Assembly (NCBI GenBank): GCA_003212655.1
Contig: QCPF01000005.1
Location: forward strand, 1 to 64,000
Length of the DNA: 64,000 nt
DNA from: Prochlorococcus sp. AG-436-D21
Lineage (GTDB): Bacteria; Cyanobacteriota; Cyanobacteriia; PCC-6307; Cyanobiaceae
Reading direction: 5' to 3'
The notes below the pieces were generated by a model that was not told the DNA's origin, did not search any database, and saw nothing but the letters and a program-made list of their open reading frames with translations. Position 1 is the stretch's first letter. Every line of letters starts with the position of its first letter. The position numbers and the translations under genes were made by a program. Of the stretch, positions 22,244-32,704 are shown in pieces.

Positions 22244-22445
22244 ATACGATAAAACTTAGTAAAAAAACTATTCAATAACCATTTTGCCTGTCAGAATATA
22301 AATGTCCAATTGGACTAGGTGATCTCAACCGATGTTTCGGACAGCGGTTCGATTCCGCTCAACTCCACTATTTGGGGTTGTAATGGTTTCGACGGGGCAT
22401 AAGGAAGGTGACTGAAGCCGGCTCGGTTAGAGCAAAAACACAAAT

Positions 22446-24656: not shown

Positions 24657-24832
24657 AAGTAGTTGATTCTCCTAATTTTGAAGAAGAAAAAAAAGAAAAA
24701 GCAAAAATTAGACAATCTGGATTATTAGTTAATTTTTTTGGAGGTTTTATAGGCTCTGTAATTGGAACTTTAACAATACTGTTTTTCTATATTAATGAAT
24801 ATCTACCATTAGATTTACTAAAACTTAAGTAG
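24590..24832 (+). CDS. Small membrane protein overlapping parA-like gene
   Basis: An 80-residue protein starting at ATG 24590 (MPDFEALIRHQQ). The first 45 residues are polar, then one membrane segment follows (about residues 48-70, LLVNFFGGFIGSVIGTLTIL). Its first 67 bases overlap the ParA-like gene. Its stop TAG (24830-24832) falls at the edge of the island's left attachment site, and in the uninterrupted chromosome it would have been directly next to the argJ stop. No known family was recognised. The context suggests an anchor or partner of the ParA-like ATPase. Confidence 0.7.
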   Translation: MPDFEALIRHQQLKQPTTNKRLKVVDSPNFEEEKKEKAKIRQSGLLVNFFGGFIGSVIGTLTILFFYINEYLPLDLLKLK

Positions 24833-24850
24833 TATATTCGCTATTAATTT
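24832..24850 (+). repeat. Attachment-site copy 1 (attL)
   Basis: GTATATTCGCTATTAATTT. The first 14 bases are identical to copies 2 (26766) and 3 (31472). On the minus strand it reads GTG GAA ATT AAT AGC GAA TAT ACT ACT TAA, that is V-E-I-N-S-E-Y-T-T-stop, the same end as argJ. The left flank is chromosomal and the right flank belongs to element 1. Copies 1 and 2 share TATATACACCTT at the same distance to the right. Confidence 0.85.
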
Positions 24851-24921
24851 CCACCTTGAGCAAATAGTATATACACCTTGCTGTAATCCATTGGCATCAC
24901 TAGAGCAAGTTTTTAGAAAAT

Positions 24922-25040
24922 AATCACACCATAATCACAGTCGGCAAAATAATAATCACAGTTTTAGATTTTAAATAAAAACCATTGAAATTATTAGGAT
25001 TAATTTCTGTGATCTTATTAGTAATCACAGAATAATCACA
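24922..25040 (+). repeat. AATCACA repeat cluster, left end of element 1
   Basis: Five direct copies of AATCACA start at 24922, 24933, 24954, 25023 and 25034, plus an inverted ATCACA at 25008-25013. Two pairs are exactly 11 bases apart, one helical turn. They fill the region between the attachment site and the YadA-like gene, where I see no ORF (24833-25171). Their arrangement suggests arm-type sites for the tyrosine recombinase or an accessory factor. Confidence 0.75.
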
Positions 25041-25171
25041 TTAATACCAAAAGTGAGTATTCATTATTGAGAGGGGGGATGGGAATTTCCTGTTATTGAT
25101 TGAAAAAATATAAACAATCAAAAGACAAAATCTATATTTGAAGGAAACTATATTTAACTAGTATCAAAATC

Positions 25172-26413
25172 ATGAAAAAGTTCTTAATCTTTTCTCTTAT
25201 TAGTTCAGGTTTTATATTTAATATTCAAAAAGCACAAGCAGACTGGGATTATTGGGGCTATAAAGATGAAACAGAAACAGTAAATGGTCATACAGATACT
25301 TTTCGTAATTTATATACAATTAATTCTGCTACTGGTGTTGGAACTAGAAGACAAAGATTTTGCTACAGCAGCAATATCAACACCATGAATACTTGTCATA
25401 CAAATACAGGACTTCCAATTCTTAGATCCCCAACTGATATTGCTTACCCTGAAAAACATATTGATAAAGATACTTTAATTATCAAACAAAAAGAAACAAA
25501 TTATTCAAGCGACACAATTCAGAAAAAATATAATTTAAATGGAGATACTCTAACCAGTGAGACAATTACTTCTGCTACCACTTATTGGTATGACGACTAT
25601 AGTTACGTTCAAGTAAGAGGGGCCGCACAAATTGATAGTGATGGAAATTATTATTCAGATATTGGTGGGCAAATGTGGATTAAGCAAACCTCAGATGGAA
25701 CAATTAGTTTTGGCAAATCAGGTAGTGATACTGCTATCTATTCATTAAGTGAAAATGGAGTTTCACAAGGAGGAAGTAATTTAATAAGTAGAACCTCTGA
25801 TGGGATAACAAGTATTGGAGCAAACTCACTTAAATTACAGGAAAGTGGTGGATTACAAAAAATGTGGGCGACTGATGCTAGCGGGAAAAGCATTCCAATA
25901 GATATTACAAATGGGACTAAATTACTAATCAACGGAAGAGATGTAGAGCAATCAATTAATAATGTAGGCGCACTCAGCGCTGCCTTAACAGGACTACCAA
26001 CAGTTCCAAGTGACACAACATTAGCGTGCGGTTTTGGAACGGGGACTCATGGCGGTGATATTGCTCTTTCTGGTGGGTGTGCTTCAAAAATTAATGAAAA
26101 ACTTTCAATAAATTATGCTGCTTCGTTGACTATGCCCGGTCAAGATTATGCCGGTAATCTTGAAGATAAGTTTTCTGCTAGAGCAGGATTTGTTTGGAAA
26201 TTAGGAAAGTCCTTGAAACCTACTCAAATCAGTATGGGAGAAAAAGAAAAAATGGAAGACAAGATCAATTCTCTTGAAGAGAAGAATGAAAAAATTCTGT
26301 CTAAAAATCAGAAATTAGAAAATACAGTCTCTACTCTTTTAGCAAGACTAGAGCGACTAGAAAAAGTAGCACTTGGTGAGACTAAATCAAAAGATTTAGC
26401 CAACCTAAGGTAG
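25172..26413 (+). CDS. YadA-like surface adhesin / fibre protein with C-terminal coil
   Basis: A 413-residue exported protein. Residues 1-23 form a signal peptide ending AQA before DWDYWG. The middle (about 60-260) is Ser/Thr/Gly-rich with repeated short beta-like segments such as SLSENGVSQGGSNLISRTSDG. Residues about 262-350 resemble a YadA anchor domain: NNVGALSAALTGLPTVP, then a Gly-rich set of beta strands ending ARAGFVWKLG. Unlike standard autotransporters, a coiled coil of about 60 residues follows (EKMEDKINSLEEKNEKIL onward). A trimeric outer-membrane location is likely. It is the only large cargo of element 1, and a possible function is attachment or phage-receptor change. Confidence 0.75.
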   Translation: MKKFLIFSLISSGFIFNIQKAQADWDYWGYKDETETVNGHTDTFRNLYTINSATGVGTRRQRFCYSSNINTMNTCHTNTGLPILRSPTDIAYPEKHIDKDTLIIKQKETNYSSDTIQKKYNLNGDTLTSETITSATTYWYDDYSYVQVRGAAQIDSDGNYYSDIGGQMWIKQTSDGTISFGKSGSDTAIYSLSENGVSQGGSNLISRTSDGITSIGANSLKLQESGGLQKMWATDASGKSIPIDITNGTKLLINGRDVEQSINNVGALSAALTGLPTVPSDTTLACGFGTGTHGGDIALSGGCASKINEKLSINYAASLTMPGQDYAGNLEDKFSARAGFVWKLGKSLKPTQISMGEKEKMEDKINSLEEKNEKILSKNQKLENTVSTLLARLERLEKVALGETKSKDLANLR

Positions 26414-26489
26414 TTAATGTAAAAAAATTACAAGATCTTTGAGAAAAAAAATTTTGAAAGTAAAATCATCTCAAATATCTGAAAACAAA

Positions 26490-26633
26490 ATGGCTGCGAC
26501 TTGGAACGTCAAATTAAGTGCTCAAGGAAGAACAATGAACGTAACCGTTCAGGCAGGAACTCAACCCGAAGCAAGAAAAATAGCGGAACATCAATATCCA
26601 GGATATAAAGCAGTTACTGCTCAAAGGGCATAA
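26490..26633 (+). CDS. 47-residue microprotein, GRT/A-x-x-x-YP family
   Basis: A 47-residue protein starting at ATG 26490 (MAATWNVKLSAQGRTMNV); the open frame extends to TTG 26439 but the conserved part begins at this ATG. It shares a pattern with the 46-residue protein of element 2 at 29096: V-x-L-x-x-x-G-R-T, then A, then a helix A-x-x-x-A-x-x-x-YP. The probable fold is a beta hairpin plus helix. Similar small proteins occur in picocyanobacteria and their phages, from memory. The function is unknown. It follows the YadA-like gene by 76 bases in the same direction. Confidence 0.75.
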   Translation: MAATWNVKLSAQGRTMNVTVQAGTQPEARKIAEHQYPGYKAVTAQRA

Positions 26634-26670
26634 TTTGAAAAATTAAATGATCTAAAAATCTTGAAATAAT

Positions 26671-26754
26671 AATCACAGTATTATCACAGTCGCAAAAGGT
26701 GTGTATTCTTTTTGGGATTTTATATAGTCATATCAATTGATCCTAAAGATCACA
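26671..26754 (+). repeat. AATCACA-type repeats, right end of element 1
   Basis: AATCACA at 26671, TATCACA at 26682 (11 bases later) and GATCACA at 26748. The last ends 11 bases before the core of copy 2. The same pair spacing (11) and the same N11 distance occur at the right end of element 2. An AAGGTGTGTAT at 26696 is a near inverse of the left-end TATATACACCTT. The region 26634-26765 holds no ORF. Confidence 0.7.
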
Positions 26755-26765
26755 AAAACTACGTC

Positions 26766-26784
26766 GTATATTCGCTATTTATTT
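26766..26784 (+). repeat. Attachment-site copy 2 (element junction)
   Basis: GTATATTCGCTATTTATTT. On the minus strand it reads GTG CAA ATA AAT AGC GAA TAT ACG ACG TAG, giving V-Q-I-N-S-E-Y-T-T-stop. The two Thr codons are synonymous with those in copies 1 and 3. It is both the right end of element 1 and the left end of element 2. Confidence 0.85.
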
Positions 26785-26962
26785 GCACCTATAGTATTTG
26801 TTATATACACCTTTATATCGCCTTCAGAGGGGTCTTAAATATTTCATCTTAATAATACTCAAATATGCTAATTTAACCCCATATATGGTGTAAAAATGGC
26901 ATTTCAGGGCATTTATTCAAGCTTTCTCTTCATAAGCTTAAACTGAATATTTTACGAATACA

Positions 26963-27085
26963 AATCACACTACAAATCACACCGCATCACAAACAAATCA
27001 CACTCCATTTAGCTCTATATGGACTTCTAATGGTGGTAAGGCTTTATGACGTGCAAATACTCCCACAAATCACAAACAAATCGCA
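26963..27085 (+). repeat. AATCACA repeat cluster, left end of element 2
   Basis: AATCACA at 26963, 26975, 26996 and 27068, with variants CATCACA at 26985 and AATCGCA at 27079. Most neighbouring copies are 10-12 bases apart. The cluster starts 184 bases inside the core of copy 2. From 26785 to 27121 there is no ORF worth calling. Confidence 0.75.
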
Positions 27086-27121
27086 TTTCCTACCAAGAGG
27101 CATATTCTAAACTTGTATAAA

Positions 27122-27249
27122 TAATTGTAGAAAGAATTAGTTTCGTTCTTTCTAAAAGAAATGGTTTTAAAGTTGTTACCACGATTTCCCATTTCTTTTT
27201 CATTGAGTAAATCTACAGCCTTCTCAAGTGAACCTTGAGGAGGTTTTTT
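27122..27249 (+). ncRNA. Candidate structured small RNA of element 2
   Basis: Three consecutive hairpins can be drawn on the plus strand, and no ORF overlaps them. Hairpin 1 pairs AGAAAGAA (27129-27136) with TTCTTTCT (27146-27153). Hairpin 2 pairs AAGAAATGG (27156-27164) with CCATTTCTT (27189-27197). Hairpin 3 is a strong terminator with a T run (27219-27249). A -10-like TATAAAT lies near 27112. The start is a guess from that box. The function is unknown; this could be a regulatory RNA for the element. Confidence 0.45.
27219..27249 (+). terminator. Intrinsic terminator, plus strand
   Basis: CCTTCTCAAG (27219-27228) pairs with CTTGAGGAGG (27234-27243), one pair being T-G, around the loop TGAAC. 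Six T residues follow (27244-27249). No plus-strand gene ends nearby, so it implies a non-coding plus-strand transcript. Confidence 0.75.
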
Positions 27250-27254
27250 ACTAC

Positions 27255-27298
27255 AAAAAAAAAATTGAAATCAAATGTTTAAAGAAATCTGATTTCAA
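27255..27298 (-). terminator. Intrinsic terminator of the small-gene operon, minus strand
   Basis: On the minus strand TTGAAATCA (27298-27290) pairs with TGATTTCAA (27273-27265), and ten T residues follow (27264-27255). It lies about 75 bases after the last gene of the five-gene operon. Confidence 0.8.
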
Positions 27299-27371
27299 AT
27301 AAGTTTTATCTCTCTCAAATCGTTATTTTAAGCTTAATAGTATCTTTCAATTTAGCTTCAGGGGTGTTGTC

Positions 27372-27728
27372 TCACGAACGAACACACGAAATAACGAAAT
27401 CAATAACAATATTAGATATATGCAAGAGGAGCTTATTATCAAATTGATTGCTGATTAGTTCTATTTGTGGTTCAGAATTAATAACCAAGTAGCAACTTGT
27501 TGTTCCTTTAGAAAAATTAAAAAATCTGTATATTAAATCTTCTTCTTCGTCATATAAAAAGAAACTTTCTTCCAAGCTCCAATCTGCAATATTTTCTAAA
27601 AGCAAATCTTCAATCGCAAGTAAAATCTTCTGGGCGATTTCTATATCTTCAGCAGAAAGTTTTGTCTTTTTTAACTGCTCTGGAGTTAATTGATATTTGT
27701 TCTTAAACTTTTCTACATCTAATTCCAT
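27372..27728 (-). CDS. Unknown 118-residue protein, last gene of small operon
   Basis: An acidic protein of 118 residues that I do not recognise. The N-terminal half is helical (ELDVEKFKNKYQLTPEQLKK, then SAEDIEIAQKILLAIEDLL), and the C-terminal half alternates beta-like strands (SCYLVINSEPQIELIS). Its ATG overlaps the stop of the preceding 51-residue gene by one base (TAATG), so it is translationally coupled. It is the last of five genes read leftward from 28540, and an intrinsic terminator follows at 27255-27298. Confidence 0.65.
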   Translation of the reverse strand: MELDVEKFKNKYQLTPEQLKKTKLSAEDIEIAQKILLAIEDLLLENIADWSLEESFFLYDEEEDLIYRFFNFSKGTTSCYLVINSEPQIELISNQFDNKLLLHISNIVIDFVISCVRS

Positions 27729-27883
27729 TAATACTCTGGCAAATTAAGAGATTTATATTCATCATCAATTTTCTTGGATAGAAACTTGGCAGCTCCAGAA
27801 CTACTTGTATCTGTAATTCTGTGACCCTTAAGCATCAATATTTTTAATTTTTCAGAAATTATCGGAGAAAATACAACATTCAT
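27728..27883 (-). CDS. Unknown 51-residue protein in small operon
   Basis: A 51-codon ORF translated by hand: MNVVFSPIISEKLKILMLKG, a helix-rich middle, and an end KSLNLPEY. Both ends overlap neighbours by one base (TAATG on each side), and this argues that it is real. It has no recognised domain. The early PIISEKLKILMLKGHRITDTS stretch could pair with the preceding small protein, as in toxin-antitoxin-like pairs, but this is inference only. Confidence 0.6.
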   Translation of the reverse strand: MNVVFSPIISEKLKILMLKGHRITDTSSSGAAKFLSKKIDDEYKSLNLPEY

Positions 27884-28020
27884 TAGTTTCGTTCAATCAA
27901 CTTTCGTTTCTGATACTCGCTTAAGATAAGTTCTTCAATATATTCTTCAGGTTCAGCATTATTTTGTCTTGCAAGTGTCTTTAGCATTACCGCAAATGTG
28001 GGAGTGATATTTAATTTCAT
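27883..28020 (-). CDS. 45-residue possible ribbon-helix-helix protein
   Basis: A 45-codon ORF translated by hand: MKLNITPTFAVMLKTLARQN, then NAEPEEYIEELILSEYQKRK. A short beta strand followed by two helices, with the loop between them rich in acidic residues, looks like a ribbon-helix-helix (CopG/Arc-type) DNA-binding protein. That is a structural guess. The ATG overlaps the previous stop (ATGA) and its own stop overlaps the next ATG (TAATG), so it is embedded in a coupled operon. Confidence 0.6.
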   Translation of the reverse strand: MKLNITPTFAVMLKTLARQNNAEPEEYIEELILSEYQKRKLIERN

Positions 28021-28304
28021 AATTTCAAATAAGGTAATCCTGAAGGAGCTGGCTTCATACCTTCAGGTGGTTTTCCTTTAATTGGTTGAGAGTGCCTTTT
28101 AACTAATCTTGGTGGGTTCGCCAACATATTAGGTCTAAAGGTAACTTCAAAATAAGTGTCTGGGTCATTATCAGAAATCTGATAATATTTTTGCGACATT
28201 AGTTCTCGGTGCTGATTACGAATATCAAAAATATTTCTTCTTTCGCGTTCAAAGTAAGCATCATCTTGATAAGCCAGTTCATTCTTTTCGTAATTTTGCT
28301 TCAT
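28017..28304 (-). CDS. Unknown 95-residue protein in small operon
   Basis: A 95-residue hydrophilic protein of unknown function. It is rich in charged and aromatic residues in the first half (NELAYQDDAYFERERRNIFD), and Pro-rich at the end (PIKGKPPEGMKPAPSGLPY). No membrane segment or known domain is visible. It overlaps the 78-residue gene upstream by one base and the 45-residue gene downstream by four bases, so it is translationally coupled on both sides. Confidence 0.65.
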   Translation of the reverse strand: MKQNYEKNELAYQDDAYFERERRNIFDIRNQHRELMSQKYYQISDNDPDTYFEVTFRPNMLANPPRLVKRHSQPIKGKPPEGMKPAPSGLPYLKL

Positions 28305-28540
28305 TAGATTATGGTAATTTTCTTTTCGTTAAACTCTTCGTTATATCTTTCTGCGATTAAGTGCTTAACCAGAGTTGAATATCCGCACCTATACTTTTTC
28401 ATCAGCTCTTCTTCTTTATCATTCAAATGTCGTTGGTGCATTCCATAAGAAACGTTCTTACTTATAGGTGGTCTTGAGTGAAAAGGAACTTCGTTCCTTT
28501 TGCCTTCGGCATCTCTTCTCTTGAATAATGTTTGTGGCAT
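28304..28540 (-). CDS. Unknown 78-residue basic protein, first gene of small operon
   Basis: A 78-residue protein, first of five overlapping genes. The N-terminal part is basic and Pro-rich (MPQTLFKRRDAEGKRNEVPF). The C-terminal part is helical, DKEEELMKKYRCGYSTLVKH followed by LIAERYNEEF, and could be a ribbon-helix-helix or small helical DNA-binding domain. No family is recognised. The upstream region (28541-28680) has an AT-rich promoter-like stretch and a 12-base palindrome. A regulator or excisionase role would fit a first gene in such an element but is not shown. Confidence 0.65.
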   Translation of the reverse strand: MPQTLFKRRDAEGKRNEVPFHSRPPISKNVSYGMHQRHLNDKEEELMKKYRCGYSTLVKHLIAERYNEEFNEKKITII

Positions 28541-29095
28541 ATTTGTCTAATTGATTATCTTATTAACTTCATTTATTTATGCATTACGGACTTACCATAC
28601 ATCTCTTACCTATACTTCTATGAACCTTCTTATATGATTTCTTCTGCAAAATCCCTTTAAAGTGTCCTATAGGACTTAATTAAGGCTTAACATTCTCATC
28701 AACCTCTACAAAGGTTATTGTATACAAGTTTTATGCAAAATTGCACTATTATATGAAGTTAAGTAAACTTAAGCGGTATTATTGTTAGCATTTAAATATA
28801 AACATATAATCCTTGACATCTATTCTGGCATCTACTCTAGTCCTTTTTACCACAATCCCTTTAAAGTATCTTTAAGAAGCCATACCCTCTGGTTCAACCG
28901 TAACAGAGTTACTTATATAAAAAATGATAGGATTTTAAAAATATTTTACATAAGTTCATATTCAAGAGAAATAATATCAGCATCTAATCATCAAGAAATC
29001 TTCGCTGACATCAATTCTGCCATCTATTTTAGAGGCATAAACATACCATCACTTTTTTTCGTCGCTGTTGTAGGTCAATCTGAAGGGACTTTTTT
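28541..29095. repeat. Repeat-rich spacer between small operon and recombinase genes
   Basis: This 555-base stretch lacks a convincing gene. It holds a perfect palindrome GTCCTATAGGAC (28664-28675) and a 14-base direct repeat AATCCCTTTAAAGT (28650 and 28854). It also has two copies of a tandem 12-mer: CATCTATTCTGG-CATCTACTCTAG at 28817-28840, and CATCAATTCTGC-CATCTATTTTAG at 29009-29032. These could be protein-binding sites, for example serine-recombinase or regulator sites. A TTG-started plus-strand frame (28782-29099) crosses it but lacks support. Confidence 0.55.
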
Positions 29096-29236
29096 TTAGA
29101 AAGTTGCCGTTGTAAAGATAATTGTGGCATCAGGGTAAATATTCCTGGCTGTTTCTTCTGCTTGCTGATTAGAGGTTGCATAGCACCTGAACCAGAAAGT
29201 CCTACCCCCTAGAAAGAGTTGCACCTTATACTTCAT
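29096..29236 (-). CDS. 46-residue microprotein coupled to serine recombinase
   Basis: A 46-codon ORF translated by hand, starting MKYKVQLFLGGRTFWFR and ending in ATIIFTTATF. It shares the pattern V-x-L-x-x-x-G-R-T, A, then a helix with A-x-x-x-A and YP, with the 47-residue protein of element 1 (26490). Its ATG overlaps the stop of the serine recombinase (ATGA), so the two are made together. Small basic partners of recombinases can be directionality factors; that is inference here. The family otherwise has no known role. Confidence 0.75.
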   Translation of the reverse strand: MKYKVQLFLGGRTFWFRCYATSNQQAEETARNIYPDATIIFTTATF

Positions 29237-29772
29237 TTCTTTAATAAGCGATAAACACTATCTCTATGAATATTCAATTCTTTTGCGATTTTTGTAGCTC
29301 CATATCCTTCTGCTTTTAATCTTCTAATTTCTTCTACATTAATTTTTTTCTTACCGCCCTTATAAACTCCTCTTGCTTTTGCTTTCGCAATTCCCTCCAT
29401 CTGTCTCTCCTTGCGAATATTTGTCTCAAACTCGGCAAAAACTCCAAGCATATCCAGAAAGCATTTAGAAGTTGCATCTTTAGTTGATATTGGTTGCTCT
29501 GTTGCTACTAATCCAACTCCTTTATCAGTTAATTCTTTAACTATTAACTGCAAATCTAAAATACTGCGGGCTAATCTATCCGTCCTAGTGATATAGCAAG
29601 TATCGCCTTCACGGACAAACTCAAGCATCTCTTTTAATTTTTCTCTCCCTTGAGTAGAAGTTCCGCTTACTTTCTCCTCAAAAATCTTATCTACGTTTTC
29701 CTTCTGGACTGCTTCGCGTTGAAGTTCTAAAGATTGAGTTGAACTACTAACTCTTATGTAAGCAACTTTCAT
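29233..29772 (-). CDS. Serine recombinase (resolvase/invertase family)
   Basis: A 179-residue small serine recombinase. The N-terminus MKVAYIRVSSSTQSLELQRE carries the catalytic serine (residue 9, 10 or 11). REGDTCYITRTDRLARSILDL (about 56-76) holds the active-site arginines. FLDMLGVFAEFETNIRKERQMEGI is the long E helix, and the C-terminal 45 residues are a helix-turn-helix (GYGATKIAKELNIHRDSVYRLL). The length matches resolvases and invertases. It may act on the element's own sites, for example resolving dimers or inverting DNA. It overlaps the 46-residue gene by four bases, and a repeat-rich 141-base region lies upstream. Confidence 0.93.
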   Translation of the reverse strand: MKVAYIRVSSSTQSLELQREAVQKENVDKIFEEKVSGTSTQGREKLKEMLEFVREGDTCYITRTDRLARSILDLQLIVKELTDKGVGLVATEQPISTKDATSKCFLDMLGVFAEFETNIRKERQMEGIAKAKARGVYKGGKKKINVEEIRRLKAEGYGATKIAKELNIHRDSVYRLLKK

Positions 29773-29781
29773 TTGTTTAAG

Positions 29782-29908
29782 TGTCGTATCTACATCTAAA
29801 CGTTAGAGCTGATATGTCGTATCAGAAAAAAACAACCCTGATACGTAGCCTTTTGTAGCCCTTTTTGTCGGATAATTTTTATCGTGAACGGTATACCATT
29901 TACGACAC
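29782..29908. promoter_or_regulatory. TGTCGTATC repeats and palindrome between the recombinases
   Basis: Two direct copies of TGTCGTATC lie at 29782-29790 and 29815-29823. The inverted repeat CGTATCAG (29818-29825) / CTGATACG (29838-29845) overlaps the second. An inverted GTGTCGT is found at 29902-29908. The first copy is 9 bases from the serine recombinase ATG (29772). This looks like an operator that controls that gene. Confidence 0.55.
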
Positions 29909-29913
29909 GAATA

Positions 29914-31287
29914 TTATTCGTCTACACCAAGTAATTTTTCGTATTCCATCAAATCATTAGAATAAGTTTTTTTGTAAAAAGTTCTATTTTTAGTAATTTT
30001 TTCCCACGTATTTCTGCTTTCCTGTTCGTGGTGGTAATAAGTTAGTTCAATTTCTTTTAATGAAGTCCCCGCAAGTTCAGCCAGAGTAATTAAAGGAACT
30101 CCATTTCCTACTGCAAATGATATACCTGTGTGGCGAAAACTATACCAAGTTATATTTTTACTTCCCCAGTATCGTGCTTTGCATAAATCTTTAATTTTTT
30201 TCCATTCTCTTTCCCACGTTCCATTTCCCATTCTTTCATCTTTATTAAACTTTTTAATAATTGGCTTATCCATATATTCAAGTGGGACGTGAGGAAACTT
30301 ACTCTTGGGAACTTTAGGTATTCCAGATAATTCACGAATAGCGTTGAAGCGTGTAACTGTGGGAGTTAAAACAACTCTGGAAGTTCCAACTTTACAAGCT
30401 TCTTTTCTCACACGAATTAAATGACCGATTTGTTGGTCTTCTTTAGTAAGATTTTCTGCAACATCTAAATCTCCCCATACCAAGTTTCTTAAAGTTCCTT
30501 TTCTTAATAAGCTATTCGTCATTATGAAAATACAATTCAATAAAATCTTGCGATTATATACTTGCGAAGGTGTTGCAGCTTTACTTTTAGTCCAAGCATA
30601 AAGAGTAGGAATTGTTTGTTTATATTCTTTCTGGTTTAAATAATCTCTTCTACTATCTTTTCTTCTTTCTCTTACAACTTCTTTAAACTCTGGGACTTTT
30701 AAAACTAATCCTCTATTCACAAGAAATCTAAAATACAATCTGAAAGTTGATAATTCTTGAGATATTGTTTGCATATACTTGGGCGGTGTATTGGTAGGTG
30801 TTTTTAAGCTCCTCCAATAGGGATATTCATATAATTTTTTATAATCAAGTTTTTCTAAAGGTATATTTTTATTCTTATAAAACTTTTTAAGGTGGTCTAA
30901 CCTTGCGGACATAGCCCTATGAGTTCCTTTTGTAATGTATCCGCGAACTGCATATGGTTTAATTCTTTTCTCTTCTTGTCTTAAGAAATCGTCCATCAGG
31001 TCAAATAATCCTTTCTTGACTATTGCCTTCATACCAGCTTGCATTCTTGCTTTTGCTTCGTGGAACTTTTCCTGTGCGAATAATCTTGCTTCTTCTAATC
31101 CAACATTTATATCGTCATTATCTCCTTGTATCTTCGTAGATTTTTTTATTGTGCCTTCGCCATCTAACTGCAAATAGTATTGCCACACGCTTGAACGAGG
31201 ACGCTTGTGTATAAAACAATTCCTCAAGCCATATATTTCTACCTTATGTTTAATGTATTTTCCCTCTGTGGGTCGTCCTTTAGGCAT
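29914..31287 (-). CDS. Tyrosine recombinase (integrase)
   Basis: A 457-residue phage-type integrase. The catalytic domain occupies the C-terminal half. The first Arg is seen in LLRKGTLRNLVWGDLD (about residue 255), the box II pair in TWYSFRHTGISFAVGNG (H-R region, about 385), and the nucleophile Tyr in the late ELTYYHHEQ (about 430). The N-terminal part has an arm-binding-like basic region and a SAM-like core-binding domain. It starts at ATG 31287, 28 bases from AATCACA repeats, and lies 177 bases from the attachment site in argJ. Such recombinases integrate elements at short gene-end sites, which fits this context well. Confidence 0.93.
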   Translation of the reverse strand: MPKGRPTEGKYIKHKVEIYGLRNCFIHKRPRSSVWQYYLQLDGEGTIKKSTKIQGDNDDINVGLEEARLFAQEKFHEAKARMQAGMKAIVKKGLFDLMDDFLRQEEKRIKPYAVRGYITKGTHRAMSARLDHLKKFYKNKNIPLEKLDYKKLYEYPYWRSLKTPTNTPPKYMQTISQELSTFRLYFRFLVNRGLVLKVPEFKEVVRERRKDSRRDYLNQKEYKQTIPTLYAWTKSKAATPSQVYNRKILLNCIFIMTNSLLRKGTLRNLVWGDLDVAENLTKEDQQIGHLIRVRKEACKVGTSRVVLTPTVTRFNAIRELSGIPKVPKSKFPHVPLEYMDKPIIKKFNKDERMGNGTWEREWKKIKDLCKARYWGSKNITWYSFRHTGISFAVGNGVPLITLAELAGTSLKEIELTYYHHEQESRNTWEKITKNRTFYKKTYSNDLMEYEKLLGVDE

Positions 31288-31314
31288 CTGACAGCAAAAT
31301 TATGTGAATATACT

Positions 31315-31460
31315 AATCACACATAAATCACACTGCAACTATGTTGATATAACAAATATATTGATAAGGCTATAAATGTGCCTTTATTGAGAAAATATGC
31401 CTGTTTTTGGTCTTAAATGGTGGTTTTATTGAGAATATCTACAGCCCATTATAAATCACA
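31315..31460 (+). repeat. AATCACA repeats, right end of element 2
   Basis: AATCACA at 31315 and 31326 (11 bases apart), and again at 31454. The last ends 11 bases before the core of copy 3, exactly as at the right end of element 1. The first pair lies in the upstream region of the integrase gene, so the integrase might repress its own expression. The rest of 31288-31464 is without an ORF. Confidence 0.75.
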
Positions 31461-31464
31461 CTTT

Positions 31465-32704
31465 CTATGTAGTATATTCGCTATTTATTTCAACATATTT
31501 TTTAGAAAGATCGCACCCCCAAGCTGTGCCTTTCGATTCTCCAGAATTTAGATTAATCATAATTTCTACAATATCATCTACCAAATATCTACCTTTCATT
31601 CTGGACTTAATATAGTCTGTGACTTTTTGTTGATCATATTTATTTAACTGGCCTTTTTCCAAAATATGGGCGTTTCCTATATATAAGTCAACGTCATTTA
31701 AATTAAATTTAACTCCAGAATTACCTGCAGCAGAAATGATTCGTCCCCAATTTGGATCACAACCATGTATCGCAGTTTTTACCAAGGCAGAATTACAAAT
31801 AGATTTCGCGAGCATAATTGCATCATCTGTATTTTTTGCTCCTTGAACCAAAACTTCTATTAAACAATTTGCTCCCTCTCCATCTCTTGCAATATTTTTT
31901 GCCAAGTTCTGACATACAATATCAATACCTTGTTGGATAATTGGGAAAAACCTTTTTTCAATTTTCTCTCCTGCATTTATTCCAACAAAAGAATCATTTG
32001 TGCTTGTCTCTCCATCAACTGATATTGCATTAAAAGATTTTTGAACCGCAATAGCAATCATTTTGTCCCATTCTTCTTTTTGAATACCCGCATCACAGGT
32101 TAGAAAAGCAAGCATTGTAGCCATATTGGGGTAAATCATTCCTGAACCTTTTGCAAATCCTGCTATTTTTATTTTTCTACCTTGAATAATCGTCTCTATT
32201 GACACTTTTTTTCAAAGTCAAATCAGTAGTTAAAATTGCTTCTGCTGCATTTTCAAAATTATTACCCTTTAAATCACTAACTAAATTCGGTAAATTTTTT
32301 ACTAAATCATTTATTTGTATTGGAACACCAATTACACCAGTTGAGCACATTAAAACTTCTTCTTCTTTTATTCCTAAAAGTTCCGCAATCTTTCCTGTAG
32401 CAATTTGAAAATGTTGAATGCCAAGATTTCCTGTACATGCATTTGCTTGACCAGAATTAATTAGAATTGCTCTTACAAAACCTGAAGTTGTTTTAATCCT
32501 TTCCTCACAAATATCCACACAAGAAGCTCGAACTATTGATTGGGTAAACATCCCACTAAAAATACTTCCTTCTGGAGCGAGTATTAGTGCTAAATCTTTT
32601 TTATTAGAAGCTTTTAAACCAGCAGATATCCCAGCAAAAAGAAACCCCTTGGGTGTTACCTTACTGTCATCAACAAACGACCAATTGGAATCTAACTGGC
32701 TCAA
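31465..32704 (-). pseudogene. argJ: argJ, bifunctional ornithine acetyltransferase/NAGS, one-base frameshift
   Basis: ArgJ makes N-acetylglutamate and recycles the acetyl group in arginine synthesis. Two overlapping frames cover the gene: residues 1-about 166 from TTG 32704, and the rest from about 32205 to TAG 31465. They meet at a run of seven T (32206-32212; A7 on the coding strand). Removing one base gives a single 412-residue ArgJ, the expected length, with KK-VSIETIIQGRK across the join. The self-cleavage site is intact in KGSGMIYPNMATMLAF, where Thr is the nucleophile. Sequence error, true mutation or slippage at A7 are all possible. The 3' end is the island's integration site. Confidence 0.85.
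31472..31490 (+). repeat. Attachment-site copy 3 (attR), inside argJ
   Basis: GTATATTCGCTATTTATTT. It is the 3' end of argJ itself. On the minus strand it reads GTT GAA ATA AAT AGC GAA TAT ACT ACA TAG, V-E-I-N-S-E-Y-T-T-stop. The right side is chromosomal argJ; the last codons and the stop come from the element. Confidence 0.85.

Follow-up and report, generated by a model that had tools for sequence, protein, structure and literature searches.

The heptamer AATCACA is repeated at the ends of two adjacent insertions, elements A and B, that lie beside argJ in contig QCPF01000005.1 of Prochlorococcus sp. AG-436-D21 (positions 1 to 64,000, hereafter the window; GC content 32%). We conclude that these repeats are very probably the arm-type sites of an argJ-specific tyrosine integrase, and that A, which carries no integrase, would be a satellite mobilised in trans; the probability of this reading is put at roughly 0.86. 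The evidence for arm sites lies in the geometry and conservation of the repeats, in the match of their motif between the two ends of an element, in precise empty sites and in the existence of integrase-less cassettes in many genomes; the binding of the arm sites and the mobilisation in trans are inferred.

Elements A and B are inserted between a conserved gene pair, coding for ParA and an 88-aa protein, and argJ. Exact copies of the core or crossover region, GTATATTCGCTATT, are present on the plus strand only at the three boundaries of the elements, namely the left end of A (24832-24845), the A/B junction (26766-26779) and the last codons of argJ (31472-31485), which form the integration target at the end of this minus-strand gene (31465-32704). 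The core-flanked interval of A (24832-26779) is a 1.93-kb cassette, the cargo of which is a secreted protein of 413 aa that has a YadA-type anchor close to the C-terminus (25172-26413, plus strand), whereas the 4.7-kb element B (26766-31485) bears a tyrosine integrase of 457 aa that belongs to the argJ-specific family (29914-31287, minus strand). An identical core occurs in the empty sites of other genomes, including several closed ones in which it joins the 88-aa gene straight to argJ, and the ArgJ ending EYTT-stop is re-created by the end of the element; integration is thus site-specific and restores the host gene.

In the window AATCACA occurs 23 times, 19 on the plus and four on the minus strand. 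Thirteen of the plus-strand copies, and none of those on the minus strand, fall within the four end zones of the elements (876 bp together), which corresponds to an enrichment of about 187-fold (0.07 expected; Poisson P ~1e-25), and the remaining six plus-strand and four minus-strand copies form an ordinary background. The scarcity of the repeats elsewhere in the window, judged by eye in a previous sequence-only reading, is therefore borne out by the counts. A dinucleotide-shuffle test over the whole window gave a weaker result (23 observed against a mean of 14.4, with 3 of 100 shuffles reaching 23) because position was not taken into account. The genome-wide check for clustering proposed in the same reading was run by pattern searches of the AG-436-D21 genome (1.16 Mb, 72.6% complete) with the close pair AATCACAN{3,5}AATCACA, which has four matches, all of them in elements A and B; the reversed-pattern control has none in this genome.

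A recount with one-base variants allowed gave five to six repeats in each left end and three in each right end, as originally claimed. With offsets counted from the first base of TATATTCGCTATT (the core start) and all sites on the plus strand, the left end of A contains five exact copies, L1 (24922-24928, +89), L2 (24933-24939, +100), L3 (24954-24960, +121), L4 (25023-25029, +190) and L5 (25034-25040, +201), the position of L1 being common to most A-type cassettes. An inverted GATCACA lies beside L4 on the minus strand (25008-25014); it is kept in the left ends of cassettes and may represent a further site. The right end of A has one exact copy, R1 (26671-26677, -96), followed by TATCACA in R2 (26682-26688, -85), a variant retained in most A-type cassettes, and by GATCACA in R3 (26748-26754, -19). 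Four exact copies are present in the left end of B (26963-26969, +196; 26975-26981, +208; 26996-27002, +229; 27068-27074, +301) together with the variants CATCACA (26985-26991, +218) and AATCGCA (27079-27085, +312), while the right end of B has three exact copies, R1 (31315-31321, -158), situated immediately 5' of the start codon of the integrase gene, R2 (31326-31332, -147) and R3 (31454-31460, -19). The five pairs said to be exactly 11 bp apart (24922/24933, 25023/25034, 26671/26682, 27068/27079 and 31315/31326) are all correct, the second members at 26682 and 27079 being one-base variants; the helical spacing holds for these pairs, but the left end of B also has neighbours that are 12 and 10 bp apart. 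The repeats do track the attachment sites, since on either side of the core they keep fixed distances to it and share one orientation.

This geometry extends well beyond the window. Most A-type ends in other Prochlorococcus genomes have their sites at the offsets of A, give or take one base, and arm columns are more conserved than other non-core columns both in 24 non-redundant A-type left ends (98.7% versus 89.5% identity; P = 4e-7) and in 22 A-type right ends (96.3% versus 86.9%; P = 0.001). Relative to A, the array of B is shifted (+196 to +312; -158, -147 and -19), and genome G083 (codes beginning with G or L denote genomes or loci compared with the window) presents a third type of array, with sites at +101, +112, +121, +132 and +218 and at -117, -106 and -19. 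Given that the offsets of A, B and G083 differ, the distance from the core falls into a few classes, while the pairing and order of the sites are kept. Repeated short sites that flank a core at fixed distances are as found with integrases of the lambda/P4 class. A conserved block, GGTGTGTATTC, is additionally present in cassette right ends (window positions 26701-26711), and possibly constitutes a second protein site or a pseudo-core.

The same geometry bears on two other functions that short direct repeats may have. As operators for transcriptional control of the integrase gene or the cargo genes, they would account for the location of R1/R2 of B just upstream of the integrase gene and of the left array upstream of the cargo gene; however, the sites are fixed with respect to the core rather than to gene starts, and are found also at cassette right ends that have no gene start, so that the chance of this explanation is very slim. 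Arrays of short direct repeats with helical spacing are equally reminiscent of the iterons of a replication origin, a negligible prospect for sites that occur at both ends of 1.2-2 kb elements devoid of a Rep gene. Both explanations were rejected because the sites stay fixed to the core at both ends, even in the gene-free 185-bp cassettes described below. A scan for sigma-70 promoters yielded fewer matches than shuffled sequences and was uninformative.

If the repeats are arm sites of the integrase, the motif may be expected to go with the element and its enzyme, and integrase relatives with 41-58% identity were found in G083, G552, G292 (two), G449, G499, G581, G543 and G584, which span several Prochlorococcus/Synechococcus genera. 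Every one of them lies at the argJ 3' end or in tandem beside argJ, as read from the sequence. The layout is unchanged while the core diverges along with the host argJ (as between TATATTCGCTATT and TGTAATCGGCATT): offsets are +89/+100/+121/+193/+204 and -98/-87/-20 in G552, +91/+102/+124 and -99/-88/-20 in G449, and -96/-85/-20 for the right ends of G581, G543 and G584. Between element types the mean identity is 0.87 in arms and 0.48 in gapped spacers, arms being higher in 28 of 28 pairs. The heptamer is AATCACA in G000, G083, G552 and one element of G292 (G292a), AGTCGCA in the other (G292b), AGTCACA in G581, G543 and G584, each read at the right end, and TATCACA in G449 and G499. The heptamers of the two sides are concordant in all eight elements for which both ends were read (end permutation P = 0.006). 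The best internal control is provided by G292, in which two adjacent elements with two integrases each carry a single heptamer at their two ends, AGTCGCA in the one and AATCACA in its neighbour.

In a profile scan of genome contigs the closest matches of the integrase were in Prochlorococcus single-cell genomes, and no relatives emerged from a single-sequence scan of genome contigs or from scans of viral contigs. A tblastn search of phages with the integrase had no match, nor did blastn searches of phages and plasmids with element A; the arm and core patterns gave isolated matches in viral contigs, where their combined layout was absent. The autonomous elements often encode another recombinase. 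A second tyrosine recombinase of about 200 aa, consisting of the catalytic domain only, is present in G552 (C6:6921-7424), G292 (C1:83162-83665) and G449 (C1:2474797-2475273), and its place is taken by a serine recombinase in G083 (238 aa) and in B, the resolvase/invertase of which has 179 aa (29233-29772, minus strand). A second recombinase thus seems to be the rule of autonomous argJ elements.

The 457-aa integrase matches PF00589 weakly but in alignment, and the phrog_1 integrase with 3.5e-19. Its R262, K299, R385 and Y417 are invariant in eight relatives and provide the catalytic Arg-Lys-Arg-Tyr set; Y382 and T408, assigned by eye, appear to occupy the usual positions of the two active-site histidines and are likewise invariant in the eight aligned relatives. 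An AlphaFold2 model built with these relatives has a tyrosine recombinase fold (pLDDT 73.8, pTM 0.51), for which Foldseek matched lambda Int, Tn1549 Int (core DNA bound) and Cre. The modelled N-terminal domain (first 95 residues) comprises antiparallel strands at 21-28, 34-41 and 45-54 followed by a helix at 64-83, and its top three matches in VIA are the arm-type domains of the P4-like, HPI and HAI7 integrases (Z 6.1, 5.8 and 5.7). The identities of these matches are just what the arm reading would predict, and in the model an arm-binding role of the N-terminal domain is supported, not proven.

Proteins other than the integrase could also occupy the repeats. Should an excisionase, another directionality factor or a host bending protein bind them, the integrase would contact only the core; excisionase sites too are typically direct repeats one turn apart, the inverted GATCACA and the GGTGTGTATTC block conserved in the ends suggest possible binding by more than a single protein, and small open reading frames of ribbon-helix-helix type were seen by eye in B and G083. 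Nevertheless, a host factor is unlikely because the motif varies by element within one host and locus, the integrase-bearing relatives have sites in common but no common small protein has been shown for them, and the best fold matches of the integrase N-terminal domain are arm-binding domains. We consider this alternative improbable.

The sequence-only reading had dealt with a single pair of elements, while A in fact belongs to a widespread integrase-less class. A blind close-pair scan of 266 Prochlorococcus genomes found 46 with a match, from which 45 stretches were fetched; the argJ 3' end was present in 35 of these, and most of the 35 argJ loci harbour one-gene cassettes of 1.2-2.1 kb with the layout of A and no integrase. 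The other 10 stretches contain neither argJ nor core, have spacers such as AAAA or GAGA, and were set aside as chance-like. Successive cores delimit 81 intervals with a median of 1643 bp, and the +89 and -96 sites are both present in 21 of them, 18 of which measure 1165-2072 bp, one 6080 bp and two 185 bp, the latter without a gene. In these 185-bp mini-elements (L081 6505-6690; L095 9145-9330) L1/L2 and R1/R2 are the same pair (89 + 96 = 185), so that they were perhaps made by recombination between arm pairs. According to the core table, two or more cores are present in about 83 of the 266 genomes; an argJ-type integrase is found in only two.

Cargo genes mostly encode YadA-anchor proteins, with others that by eye resemble a C5-methyltransferase, helicase/restriction proteins, a trypsin-like protease, a PD-DExK-like nuclease and more. 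The YadA-anchor cargo family, which includes the 25172-26413 gene of the window, occurs in 71 of the 266 genomes and combines a variable N-terminal part and a conserved anchor with a C-terminal coiled coil past the anchor, an unusual arrangement for trimeric autotransporters. Large helicase/restriction-like proteins of 921 and 1341 aa are encoded in the argJ cassettes of L146 (3879-9022) and L147 (5342-13025), and the presence of such proteins suggests a defence role for some of the cargo. Cassettes do not simply follow their hosts: in L097 the cassette is 88% identical to the cargo of A with an argJ that is only 79% identical, whereas hosts with argJ of over 94% identity have cassettes that are about 75% identical, a discordance that points to cassette exchange between hosts.

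The near-absence of the integrase leaves two further ways of regarding these cassettes. They could be moved, like pdif modules, by a resident Xer-like tyrosine recombinase of 389-393 aa, with the arm arrays as relics; six genomes with cassettes (G021, G153, G032, G133, G040 and G144) indeed have a single tyrosine recombinase above threshold, apparently resident and of this size. Yet arm geometry is kept within cassettes and matches that of integrase-bearing elements of other genera, whereas unused relics would lose it, and Xer dif modules are not known to have such arms; this makes the Xer route quite improbable. Alternatively, A could be the decayed and immobile remnant of an ancient element, its arm sites being real and the satellites inert. 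The occurrence of the family integrase in only those two genomes favours such decay, but cargo reading frames are mostly intact, tandem arrays vary in content, and the 88% cargo identity with a host of 79% argJ identity, compared with 75% between cassettes of close hosts, is difficult to reconcile with it; we regard inert satellites as unlikely, while granting them some chance.

Several observations weigh against the interpretation of the repeats as arm sites and of A as a satellite moved in trans. The offsets of B (+196 onward; -158/-147) differ from those of A, and hence it is not certain that the integrase of B acts on A; moreover, nearly all genomes with A-type cassettes are without this integrase family. 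Since the sites in the relatives were located by motif, the contrast between arms and spacers is partly built in, which does not apply to the fixed offsets, and nine integrases are too few to separate the motif from integrase phylogeny. On the protein side, the arm-domain fold match lies below Z 8, the level for trusting fold alone, Foldseek found no significant match for the N-terminal domain, and the integrase matched no arm domain in Pfam nor, at the sequence level, any known arm domain.

With these points taken into account, we propose that the catalytic domains of the integrase would take the core in the last argJ codons and its N-terminal domain the arm pairs, with DNA bending uniting the core- and arm-bound parts in the manner of lambda and P4. 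The attP and attL/attR complexes would then be shaped by the eight sites, five on the left and three on the right, which are fixed relative to the core and form pairs one helical turn apart. Element B would represent the autonomous form, and A a one-gene satellite that has retained every arm and core site while lacking an integrase; an integrase of this family would move it in trans, and any incoming integrase of matching arm type could move satellites that keep all their sites. The R1/R2 pair of B, placed immediately before the start codon of the integrase gene, would probably mediate autorepression of that gene. A broader proposition, for which we see about even odds, is that in marine picocyanobacteria the argJ 3' end serves as an integron-like docking point for cassettes built on a lambda-type integrase: tandem one-gene cassettes with eight arm sites, exchanged between hosts and carrying mainly surface-protein and restriction/defence-like genes, would depend on an integrase that circulates apart from them in rare autonomous elements.

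Two other features of the locus deserve mention. Element A contains a second small open reading frame of 64 aa (26439-26633, plus strand) with no family match. In this assembly the argJ reading frame is broken near 32205 into two overlapping frames, in the place of the single 412-aa frame of G083, and the split reflects either a frameshift or an assembly error.

Arm sites have usually been mapped phage by phage through footprinting. The dozens of natural att sites described here, with fixed geometry and element-specific motifs, make arm recognition and the specificity between helper and satellite directly testable. They also indicate a possible route by which abundant ocean phototrophs could swap single surface-protein or restriction-like genes at one chromosomal spot. 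We found no paper linking argJ with integration in Prochlorococcus, although the original tycheposon paper may hold a prior description; within a coverage that did not extend to that paper, no description was found either of cassettes of standard format, each with one gene and a full arm array, that are seated at a protein gene and common in a genus nearly without the integrase.

Compared with known systems, the argJ elements share with lambda Int and the P4-like, HPI and HAI7 integrases the catalytic fold, a core placed in the terminal part of a host gene, short arm sites that form direct repeats to its left and right, with a pair upstream of the integrase gene, and, in the model, an N-terminal domain with a putative arm-binding fold. 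They differ in having argJ rather than a tRNA gene as target, in their eight sites with a layout largely fixed across genera, in the lack of a sequence match to arm domains and, by eye, in the apparent replacement of the histidines by Tyr and Thr. The arm-type interpretation of the sequence-only reading, which had invoked lambda-like or Tn916-like integrases, is supported with the lambda/P4-type likeness as the closer one. The Tn916/Tn1549 group is similar by virtue of the fold match to Tn1549 Int, and Tn916 has arm-like direct repeats (DR2) near both ends; integration of the elements of this group is not site-specific, whereas every copy of the argJ elements found sits at one gene end.

Tycheposons live in the same hosts and likewise combine a tyrosine recombinase with hitch-hiking cargo. 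They have been reported to measure 4-200 kb and to be associated with tRNA genes (PMC10872708). The argJ elements are instead located at a protein gene, the nearest tRNA or tmRNA gene being the tmRNA gene at 22278, and most are of 1.2-2 kb (A-type cassettes mostly 1.2-2.1 kb, with A at 1.9 kb and B at 4.7 kb); their integrase family differs too, sharing 21-25% identity with the remaining 500-aa integrases detected in Prochlorococcus. As an att-flanked element without its own integrase, A corresponds to satellites mobilised in trans and to cis-mobilizable elements (CIMEs), which show the same tandem accretion beside an autonomous element; distinctive of the argJ cassettes are their recurrent standard size, mostly single gene, full arm array and presence in dozens of genomes without the helper. 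Finally, integron cassettes and pdif (Xer) modules are also tandem one-gene modules served by a tyrosine recombinase from elsewhere, as would be the case here, but the att sites of the argJ elements are complex, double-stranded and furnished with arm arrays, and their target in argJ is fixed. Their nearest enzyme is not IntI, no attC has been shown, no search aimed at it having been made, and no dif has been shown. Taken singly, arm sites, hitch-hikers without an integrase and the targeting of a gene end all fit within known kinds.

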